Source of the DNA: Nitrospina sp.
Lineage (GTDB): Bacteria > Nitrospinota > Nitrospinia > Nitrospinales > Nitrospinaceae
Length of the DNA: 53,600 nucleotides
Assembly (NCBI GenBank): GCA_020430445.1
Contig: JAGQJZ010000008.1
Coordinates: 1 to 53,600, forward strand
Direction: 5' to 3'
A model generated the notes under the pieces. That model worked only from the letters and a program-made list of their open reading frames with translations. It ran no database searches and was not told the origin of the DNA. Each line of letters opens with the position of its first letter. The stretch's first letter is position 1. Positions 27,677-33,250 of this stretch are shown here, piece after piece. The position numbers were made by a program, and so were the translations under genes.

Positions 27677-27908
27677 TGTCTTTAAACCACGGTTGAGTCA
27701 GAATTCCATGGGTAGGTCGTTTGAAATGTATTGGACCTTTCAACCGGATCTTCTGGAAACCGGAGCCTGCCGGTTGGGTGGACACGGGCCGAGCCTGCGA
27801 TGTCCCTCGGAAAGTCGGGGGGGATCTTGTTCCATTCTACTGTACAATCTCTTCTTTTCCAAATAGTTATTGCACCTCCGAAACCCCGCCGTTACAATGA
27901 CTTGTTGT

Positions 27909-28613
27909 ATGAATGAGCAAGACGAGGGCAGGCTTTACGTGGTCAGTACCCCGATCGGTAATCTGGGGGATATCACCCGCCGGGCACTGGAAATTCTACA
28001 GCGGGTCGACCTGATCGCCGCAGAAGACACCCGCAGGACGCGGATTCTGCTGAATCATTACAGCATCGAAACCCGGCTCACCAGTTACAATTCCTACAAC
28101 AAAATGGCACGGGGCCGGGACATCCTCCGCCAGCTTTCAGAGGGCAGGCAGGTGGCCCTTGTTTCCGACGCGGGGACGCCCGGAGTTTCCGATCCCTTGT
28201 TTCATCTGCTGAAGGACGCGCTGGAGGCCGGAATCGGGGTCGAAGCCGCGCCCGGCCCTTCGGCCCTGTTGTCCGCGTTGGTGGTTTCGGGCCTGCCCTG
28301 CGACCGGTTTTTTTTCGAGGGGTTTCTTCCCCGTAAAAAAGGGAGGAAGACCCGCCTGCAATGGCTGGCAGATTTACAGTGTACCGTGGTATTGTTCGAA
28401 TCGCCGCAACGGCTGGGGCGAACACTGGAAGACATTCGGACGGTGTTCGGTAACCGCCGCGCCGTTATCGCGCGCGAGATGACCAAGCTTCACGAGGAAA
28501 CCCTGCGCGGACCGCTGGAAGAGCTGATCGCCGGTCACGCCGGACGCAAGTGGAAAGGGGAAATCACCCTGATCATTTCCGGTCATGTCATCGAGGAGGG
28601 AGAAACGCTCTGA
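27909..28613 (+). CDS. rsmI: 16S rRNA (cytidine-1402-2'-O)-methyltransferase
   Basis: The SAM-dependent tetrapyrrole-methylase-fold enzyme methylates C1402 of 16S rRNA. Signatures are LYVVSTPIGNLGDITRRALEIL, AAEDTRRTRILLNHY, VALVSDAGTPGVSDP, GPSALLSALVVSGL and FEGFLPRKKGRK. The ATG at 27909 gives 234 residues; ATG 27897 is possible and neither has a good ribosome site. The product is shorter than E. coli RsmI (286 residues) and lacks the small C-terminal domain. Its TGA overlaps the ATG of the next gene by one base, coupling it to the ParA-like ATPase. Confidence 0.93.
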   Translation: MNEQDEGRLYVVSTPIGNLGDITRRALEILQRVDLIAAEDTRRTRILLNHYSIETRLTSYNSYNKMARGRDILRQLSEGRQVALVSDAGTPGVSDPLFHLLKDALEAGIGVEAAPGPSALLSALVVSGLPCDRFFFEGFLPRKKGRKTRLQWLADLQCTVVLFESPQRLGRTLEDIRTVFGNRRAVIAREMTKLHEETLRGPLEELIAGHAGRKWKGEITLIISGHVIEEGETL

Positions 28614-29931: not shown

Positions 29932-30498
29932 ATGGACATCCCAAAATTAATGGTATTGACGGCGGACCAGTTTCGCCTGCTTCTGGGAGCGGACCCGGAC
30001 GGTTATTACGAACGCGATACCCGCGATCAGTTGCTGCGCCTGATCCAGAAACTGGAAAACTTTCAGAAAGACTGTTCACGGCCTGAAATGGACCTGTACC
30101 GCCGGCACCAGCGCAAGGCGCTGGGAATACGCCTTCCGGCGGGCAGCGAGACCCGGCATCCGGTGGAAATACCCGGGGGATTGCTGGTGGAGGGTTTGCA
30201 GCAGGGGGACGTCGACCTGGGGGGAGGTCTGGTGGTTGCGGACAGCGGCGAGGTAACGGGCAATATCACCGCCGCCTCGGTGGTGTGCCGCGGCAAAATC
30301 AAGGGGGACATCCGGGCGCGGGGAACGGTCCACCTGTGCGCCGACGGTCAGGTGGAGGGCCGCGTGGAGGCGGCCACCCTGCAGATCGAAGACGGGGCGC
30401 GTTTCACCGGCCACTGTCACCTGGAACCGGAGTTGAATTCCCCGTCTCCCAGCGCCTGGGCCAGCGTGAAGAAACTGCTGGGCATGAGGACTCCCTGA
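29932..30498 (+). CDS. Bactofilin with an extra N-terminal domain
   Basis: The ATG at 29932 lies 5 bases after the ATPase stop and gives 188 residues. Residues about 75-165 are the bactofilin beta-helix: GGLLVEGLQQGDVDLGGGLVVADSGEVTGNI, VVCRGKIKGDIRARGTV and ADGQVEGRVEA, repeating every 17-18 residues. These proteins polymerise into cytoskeletal filaments that organise cell-wall enzymes. The first 60 residues are not part of a normal bactofilin. They align without gaps to the start of the next protein (shared K5 L6, P22 xG24, Y26, R28, T30 R31, L34, I38, K40 L41, L55 Y56, Q60). This suggests a common docking domain. Confidence 0.85.
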   Translation: MDIPKLMVLTADQFRLLLGADPDGYYERDTRDQLLRLIQKLENFQKDCSRPEMDLYRRHQRKALGIRLPAGSETRHPVEIPGGLLVEGLQQGDVDLGGGLVVADSGEVTGNITAASVVCRGKIKGDIRARGTVHLCADGQVEGRVEAATLQIEDGARFTGHCHLEPELNSPSPSAWASVKKLLGMRTP

Positions 30499-30584
30499 CT
30501 CCCGATCCAATTTTGCACCCTTTCGGCCCGGGCGAATGCGTTGGTGGTTCACAGTCCTGACGCCAGCTTCTGGATCATTCAACC

Positions 30585-31739
30585 ATGGACGCGAACAAGC
30601 TCAACATCCTTTCCCTTACGGAATACAACCTGATCGCGAACAAGAACCCGCAGGGCAGTTACGACCGGGCGACGCGTGAAAATCTGTACGCGATCATCCA
30701 CAAGCTGCATGAAAACTTCAACACCCTGTCGGGTCTGGAAAACCGTCTTTATGGCAAGTTTCAGGCGGCGCGGTTCGGGGCCCTCGAGGACAAGGACAAA
30801 AGGGTCGCCCGCGAGGTGGTGCGTTACCGGCTCTCAAACCGCGTCAAGCAGTGGATTCAGGGCACGGTTCTGGCCGGGCTCTGCCTGACGCTGGTGGGTA
30901 TCCTGATTTATCAGGTTTTGCTCGACGACAATTCACGGCGCAAGGTGGACCTCGCCTGGTACGAACAGCTCAACAAGATGGGGCTGGTGTCGAAGGAGGA
31001 ACTGGCGAAGATGGAAAAGGACCTCACCATCACCGCCAGCAAACTGAAAAAAACGCGTGAGGAAAATCAGGAACTGGCGGCAACGGTGGAAGGCATGATC
31101 CTCAACAACCGGGTCGCGGAAAACCTGAAATACATCCTCAAACAGATCTACAAAGACCCGCGGACCCGGTACGAGCAGGTCGCGGGCGGCGTTTCGCTTC
31201 AGTTCGCGGGCCGGGAGCTGGCGCGTTACCTGTCGGACCCGGAACGGTGGTACCTGCTGGGGATCATCGAGACGGGTGTGATCAAAGTGATGTATAACAA
31301 CGACCAGATTCTGGAAATCGAGGCCATATTCGGACGCCAGGGGGAGGAAACCCCGCTCGGCGAATACGAGGTGAAGAACAAGGTGTTTAAGCCGGCGTGG
31401 TACAAGAGAGAGCAGATCGACGGCAAGGTCCGGGTCCGCAAAATTCCGTTTGGCCACCCGGACCACGAGATCGGCCACTGGTGGCTCGGCCTCAAGCGGC
31501 TGGGCCCGCCGGTGCCGGGGAGCTACGGGATCCATGGAGTCAACATCGCCCGCTTCAATGAGTTCTTCAAAAAGAACTTCGACTGGCGCAACGGCAGCGC
31601 GGGGTGTCCCAATATTCAGGAATGGTACCTGGAGTTTCTGGGAAGGGTGATTCCGTTGGGGACGCCGGTCAATATCGTTCCGCGCGAAAAATGGAACGGC
31701 AAGGGGGCCGTGACCGGCCAAATGGTAGGCGCGTTGTGA
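30585..31739 (+). CDS. Membrane-anchored YkuD-type L,D-transpeptidase-like protein
   Basis: The 384-residue protein has a cytosolic N-terminus (1-88) homologous to the N-terminus of the bactofilin just upstream. One membrane helix (about 90-112) and a coiled coil (about 135-170) follow, then a periplasmic YkuD domain. The active-site pattern is YGIHG (H317) followed by S338-A-G-C341-P-N. The usual motif is S/T-H-G-C, so the His before Gly is Ala here while the nucleophile Cys and the upstream His remain. The family cross-links or modifies peptidoglycan. The layout links a cytosolic scaffold domain to a periplasmic wall enzyme across the membrane. An 86-base gap separates it from the bactofilin. 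Confidence 0.85.
   Translation: MDANKLNILSLTEYNLIANKNPQGSYDRATRENLYAIIHKLHENFNTLSGLENRLYGKFQAARFGALEDKDKRVAREVVRYRLSNRVKQWIQGTVLAGLCLTLVGILIYQVLLDDNSRRKVDLAWYEQLNKMGLVSKEELAKMEKDLTITASKLKKTREENQELAATVEGMILNNRVAENLKYILKQIYKDPRTRYEQVAGGVSLQFAGRELARYLSDPERWYLLGIIETGVIKVMYNNDQILEIEAIFGRQGEETPLGEYEVKNKVFKPAWYKREQIDGKVRVRKIPFGHPDHEIGHWWLGLKRLGPPVPGSYGIHGVNIARFNEFFKKNFDWRNGSAGCPNIQEWYLEFLGRVIPLGTPVNIVPREKWNGKGAVTGQMVGAL

Positions 31740-31876: not shown

Positions 31877-33250
<1,374 letters not shown>

Follow-up and report, generated by a model that had tools for sequence, protein, structure and literature searches.

A paralogous N-terminal domain shared by a bactofilin and a YkuD-family L,D-transpeptidase in Nitrospinota

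Closest described systems and the Nitrospina locus

In Caulobacter crescentus, the bactofilin BacA recruits the bitopic cell-wall enzyme PbpC via the cytosolic N-terminal peptide of PbpC (PMC12448750). In Myxococcus xanthus, the bactofilin BacP recruits ParA through PadC (PMC5703909). A locus of Nitrospina sp., located in a 53,600-nucleotide stretch of contig JAGQJZ010000008.1 (hereafter the window), resembles both. As in the BacA-PbpC pair, a bitopic wall enzyme with a cytosolic N-terminus accompanies a bactofilin; the topology fits, and docking would be the presumed counterpart. However, PbpC binds the bactofilin core with a 13-residue peptide (PMC12448750), whereas in Nitrospina both proteins carry a folded domain of ∼69 residues and an L,D-transpeptidase takes the place of the penicillin-binding protein. 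The BacNOP-PadC-ParA system likewise functionally links bactofilins to ParA/ParB and places a dedicated docking segment on one bactofilin, but it relies on a long disordered C-terminal tail of BacP together with an adapter that contains a ParB-like domain, and it has neither a domain shared by scaffold and client nor a wall enzyme, both of which occur here (PMC5703909). Among the papers searched, bactofilin and Nitrospina occur together in one, a broad phylogeny with a single mention of bactofilin.

Gene clustering and Pfam assignments reveal a conserved gene order, etfBA-rsmG-parA-parB-bactofilin1-rsmI-ATPase-(domain)bactofilin-(domain)YkuD-argH, in which bactofilin1 is a canonical bactofilin and the domain-bearing protein is referred to below as the N-domain bactofilin (Table 1). 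The ATPase gene ends 5 bases upstream of the start of the latter. The genome from which the window comes has its partition genes and bactofilin1 on a separate contig (C194, L117:1005-3995), and rsmI directly precedes the ATPase gene. The same separation of the partition genes and bactofilin1 from the ATPase-bactofilin-YkuD module is seen across the window's genus, whereas they are found together in most relatives. At 437 aa, the ATPase is unusually long, with an apparent large insertion after the Walker A region. One metagenome-assembled genome, N074bin53 (G004 contigs C107 and C138), contains two complete, differing copies of the module (L070 and L081), which are more likely to come from two organisms binned together than from a genuine duplication.

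Table 1. Features of the locus, in window coordinates
Feature	Position	Strand	Remarks
rsmI (16S rRNA methyltransferase family)	27870..28613	+	upstream neighbor in the conserved locus; clusters with L090 TP_methylase
MinD/ParA-like ATPase, 437 aa	28613..29926	+	Pfam CbiA 2.8e-6, AAA_31 3.9e-6; Walker motif GPKGGIGKTT
N-domain bactofilin, 188 aa	29932..30498	+	domain 1-69, then directly the bactofilin beta-helix
Shared N-terminal domain, bactofilin copy (residues 1-69)	29932..30138	+	
Bactofilin core, first rung incomplete relative to canonical bactofilin	30163..30417	+	
N-domain YkuD protein, 384 aa	30585..31739	+	cytosolic domain, membrane helix, coil-like stretch, periplasmic L,D-transpeptidase
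Shared N-terminal domain, YkuD copy (residues 1-69)	30585..30791	+	
Basic juxtamembrane helix of YkuD, conserved (residues 70-90)	30792..30854	+	no counterpart in the bactofilin
YkuD membrane helix (∼residues 91-112)	30855..30920	+	seen as a hydrophobic stretch of the translated sequence, with basic residues flanking its inner side
argH	31877..33250	+	downstream border of the conserved locus

The YkuD protein matches Pfam YkuD (PF03734) over residues 235 to 364 (E 1.3e-10, 42.4 bits against a cut-off of 23.4). It shares its catalytic domain with the YkuD L,D-transpeptidases, including an invariant His and Cys motif: the catalytic HGVN...SAGCPN signature is invariant in 12 homologues, as are H317 and C341. 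Many YkuD enzymes read SHGC at the transpeptidase motif; in this protein the motif (window 31287-31676) is SAGCPN, invariant in the aligned homologues. Unlike the YkuD enzymes of PF03734, the protein has a membrane-helix anchor, a conserved cytosolic domain and a basic juxtamembrane helix, in which K70, K72, E77, R80 and Y81 are invariant or nearly so (40 copies). The N-terminal domain precedes the membrane helix, and residues 70 to 90 contain eight K/R, compared with three just past the helix. By the positive-inside rule, this places the domain in the cytosol, in agreement with a reading of the locus made from sequence alone.

Homology, extent and predicted fold of the shared domain

That sequence-only reading had counted 21 ungapped identities between the bactofilin and the YkuD protein over residues 1 to 60 from Met1, and the count is exact (M1, D2, K5, L6, L9, L16, P22, G24, Y26, R28, T30, R31, L34, I38, K40, L41, S49, E52, L55, Y56 and Q60). 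Over this stretch, the BLOSUM62 score reaches 90, while shuffled sequences average -55 ± 16 (z = 9), and none of 200,000 shuffles matched the observed score or identity count. BLASTP aligns the two proteins with 25 of 66 residues identical (E 8e-10), and a genome-wide search with the YkuD protein returns only one other good match, the bactofilin N-terminus (E 4e-4). In 60 relatives of the same order, single-sequence searches with the bactofilin reach the YkuD N-termini, and vice versa. When 40 YkuD copies and 31 bactofilin copies are each made into a profile, the two profiles can be aligned along 72 columns (probability 99.7, E 6e-26); the bactofilin set was chosen with a profile holding both kinds and is to that extent circular, a circularity from which the single-sequence searches are free. 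The proposed homology of the two N-termini is thus borne out by both the pairwise and the profile-profile comparison, and chance similarity is excluded by the shuffles, the profile comparison and the conservation in relatives.

In the domain tree, the bactofilin and YkuD copies form the two sides of one branch (support 97), which indicates a single duplication or fusion before the radiation of the order. The two domains are therefore paralogous copies with a single split, older than the diversification of the order, and have been distinct since; copies are now ∼25-46% identical to the window's YkuD copy.

The domain extends over ∼69 residues, compared with the ∼60 first proposed, and ends in the motif AxFGxL. 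Three residues, L9, Y26 and E52, are invariant across all 71 copies. L9 and Y26 were among the residues highlighted in the sequence-only reading; E52 was missing there, and R28, Y56 and Q60, which were included, are not family-conserved in the bactofilins. The conserved residues R31 and E52 probably point inward from their helices and could have a structural role. The YkuD copy contains more invariant residues than the bactofilin copy, with N15, K20, L51 and K58 being specific to it.

Structurally, AlphaFold2 predicts matching helices in the two copies. In the YkuD copy (71 sequences), these span residues 11-18, 28-43 and 50-60 (pLDDT 82-87 over residues 11 to 60), with a short strand pair at 25-26/65-66. 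In the full bactofilin (31 sequences), helices 11-19, 28-43 and 50-59 are followed by a strand at 65-68 (pLDDT 92-95 for the domain elements). The full model has a mean pLDDT of 89 and a pTM of 0.81, and the junction into the beta-helix is confident (pLDDT 89-95). With a clear profile relation and matching predicted helices, neither of the two outcomes that would speak against a shared domain, unrelated profiles or differing folds, was found.

As first supposed, the domain matches no named family: Pfam, NCBIfam, PDB sequence and Foldseek searches returned neither a name nor a fold. No Pfam family was consistent over 26 domain members; PF24243 matched two of the 26 (best E 8e-5) and was taken as chance. 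NCBIfam gave no match over the domain, the best PDB sequence match had an E of 0.21, and Foldseek with the YkuD-copy model reached at best an E of 3.6 among solved folds and 1.5 among viral models. Plasmids searched with the whole YkuD protein and phages searched with the YkuD domain yielded no match, and a mobile origin of the domain was rejected on these empty searches. Beyond Nitrospinota, coverage comprised Pfam, NCBIfam, the PDB, plasmids, phages and one scan for the YkuD catalytic motif, which carriers without YkuD would escape.

Downstream of its copy, the N-domain bactofilin matches Pfam Bactofilin (PF04519; E 2e-21, 76.5 bits against a cut-off of 27.9), residues 78 to 162 corresponding to profile positions 13 to 97 of 98. 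The match starts at position 13, compared with position 2 of 98 in bactofilin1; this late start, together with the confident junction model, suggests that the domain replaces the first rung. Foldseek matches the full model to 6rib, 2n3d and 6ria over ∼100 residues only (TM-score 0.84-0.91 by target length). Like these canonical bactofilins, the protein retains the beta-helix core and the C-terminal polymerization phenylalanine: F158 aligns to F130 of BacA and is nearly invariant in 31 copies. Where canonical bactofilins have a short N-terminal tail, however, it has a new helical domain, and it lacks a complete N-terminal rung for head-to-head contact. We class it as a variant bactofilin that still matches the core model. 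The domain is thus predicted to sit at the head-to-head end of the beta-helix, a placement read from the secondary structure, the model confidence, the PF04519 start and the retained F158 rather than from coordinates.

Distribution and loss of the domain carriers

A profile of 26 domain copies (A1) finds matches in 50 of 61 genomes at E ≤ 1 and, at E ≤ 0.01, in 48 of 77 Nitrospinota genomes, but in none of 13 same-class genomes of other families, from which the ATPase is also absent. Within the phylum, the adjacent carriers occur all through a single order. Most positive genomes encode two adjoining carriers, with open reading frames of ∼180-280 and ∼380-450 residues, and some encode one. No convincing third type of carrier appeared at E ≤ 1, the extra matches having E > 0.003 and mostly partial profile coverage. 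Searching public genomes with full-length YkuD as the query yielded 41 loci, all titled Nitrospinota, Nitrospina or Nitrospinaceae except one titled Nitrospirae. This record (L091, Nitrospirae bacterium SZUA-226) falls within Nitrospinota when placed in the YkuD tree, and its label is probably wrong.

The ATPase accompanies the YkuD protein in essentially every genome. Eight loci encode the ATPase and the domain-bearing YkuD protein without the N-domain bactofilin (L068, L086, L094, L097, L098, L100, L101 and L102), and on the YkuD tree, supported branches make a minimum of four changes necessary to account for this absence. The reverse situation is found in two genomes of genus g13 (G031 and G042), which have neither the ATPase (no match at E ≤ 1e-3) nor the YkuD protein, the YkuD query matching just the bactofilin's own domain. 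The interval is closed, the N-domain bactofilin adjoining argH in both genomes and rsmI in G031. Between them, the bactofilin domain is 87% identical with a dN/dS of 0.095, and the bactofilin core is looser, at 78% identity and a dN/dS of 0.233 (one pair and simple counting in each case). Retention of the domain in genomes with a single carrier or without the ATPase indicates that its maintenance does not strictly depend on the other carrier or on the ATPase. In two g8 genomes that also lack the ATPase and YkuD (G021 and G043), the bactofilin domain has no YDxxTRE motif; in G017, where all genes are present, it is already aberrant.

Two further Nitrospinota loci contain remnants of broken or truncated YkuD genes (L103:3449-4196 and L104:6763-7068). 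Neither the ATPase nor the shared domain was found at either locus, and the remnants look like module decay after loss of the ATPase.

Candidate roles of the domain

Co-divergence was analyzed in 29 related loci with all proteins, as partial correlations of distances with the other proteins removed. The bactofilin domain correlates with the YkuD domain (partial r 0.25, permutation p 0.0025) about as it does with its own bactofilin core (0.23); the values are 0.04 for the YkuD periplasmic part and -0.15 (p 0.92) for the ATPase. This is modest evidence in favor of pairing between the two domains, or of a shared partner other than the ATPase. Direct pairing of the bactofilin with the YkuD protein, one of two options raised in the sequence-only reading, is compatible with this correlation; since each carrier keeps its domain where the other is absent, mutual pairing cannot be its only role.

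We tentatively favor, at somewhat less than even confidence, a reading in which the domain is a self-associating docking module, pairing like with like, on the end of the bactofilin and also recruiting the L,D-transpeptidase. It is the best single account of the independent retention of the copies, the head-end placement and the co-divergence. The bactofilin copy would sit at the N-terminal beta-helix end, which in canonical bactofilins bears the first rung and makes head-to-head contacts, and contacts between the domains would then set the form of the filament or cap it. The YkuD copy, facing the cytosol beside the membrane helix, would pair with filament-borne copies and so concentrate a wall-crosslinking L,D-transpeptidase at the bactofilin scaffold. 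Upon loss of a partner, each protein would retain like-with-like pairing with itself. The ATPase might work with the YkuD protein via another surface, formed by N15, K20, L51 and K58 and the juxtamembrane helix. A possible, if doubtful, elaboration is that an order-specific docking domain replaces the bactofilin head-to-head contact, so that the membrane-anchored L,D-transpeptidase sharing it docks into the end of the filament, caps it or nucleates it. Against like-with-like docking stand the loss of YDxxTRE in the g8 genomes, although G017 had diverged already, the possibly structural nature of the conserved R31 and E52, and the modest partial correlation from 29 related loci; moreover, a third partner common to all these genomes would account for the same losses.

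Such a third partner ranks next after like-with-like docking, and we regard it as unlikely. It would be something other than the ATPase, likeliest the canonical bactofilin1 polymer, or else ParB or the membrane, the domain then serving as a client tag for a bactofilin1 scaffold. Of 61 genomes, 59 contain bactofilin matches, both g13 and lineages that lack the N-domain bactofilin encode bactofilin1, and such a partner explains why each carrier is retained independently. However, bactofilin1 is equally present in genomes without carriers, so co-occurrence does not single it out, and the domain-domain correlation, computed without bactofilin1, lends it no direct support.

The ATPase itself was the other docking partner proposed in the sequence-only reading; in that role, its ATP-dependent switching would control both the bactofilin and YkuD. 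Its gene directly precedes both carriers and co-occurs with YkuD almost always, and the YkuD domain is the richer of the two in invariant residues. Nevertheless, the ATPase is an improbable common dock, because the g13 genomes retain the domain without it, under stronger constraint than the core, and the bactofilin domain shows no co-divergence with it.

Scarcely likely, too, is homology without a shared present function, that is, a copied folding or capping unit that now serves as a beta-helix cap in one protein and a juxtamembrane spacer in the other. The single split, the present divergence and the many shared invariants, which could be structural, would fit such separate roles; the adjacent, joint retention of the copies in most genomes of the order and their co-divergence argue against them. 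An exclusive heterotypic lock, with the bactofilin copy pairing solely with the YkuD copy, is very improbable: although the genes are adjacent, the domains co-diverge and YkuD positions 33 and 35, nearly fixed elsewhere, vary in the main clade without the bactofilin (g9-type), each copy is conserved in genomes without the other, and the variation at these positions concerns essentially that one clade and is merely a lead, since the independent losses at L098 and L102 retain both residues and L068 alters N33 alone.

How a bactofilin polymer selects its wall enzymes has been worked out for very few pairs. If the doubtful elaboration above, with the domain in place of the head-to-head contact, is true, scaffold and client would be joined here by a duplicated domain and coupled to an ATPase beside the chromosome-partition locus. 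A duplicated domain retained across an order and lost independently on either side offers a test of how bactofilins recruit clients, and the same system tests whether a domain can substitute for the head-to-head contact of the filament. For the Nitrospinota, marine nitrite oxidizers whose cell-shape control is little known, it provides a concrete target for cell biology: the domain probably brings a bactofilin and an L,D-transpeptidase together, and scaffold-guided wall editing would become directly testable.
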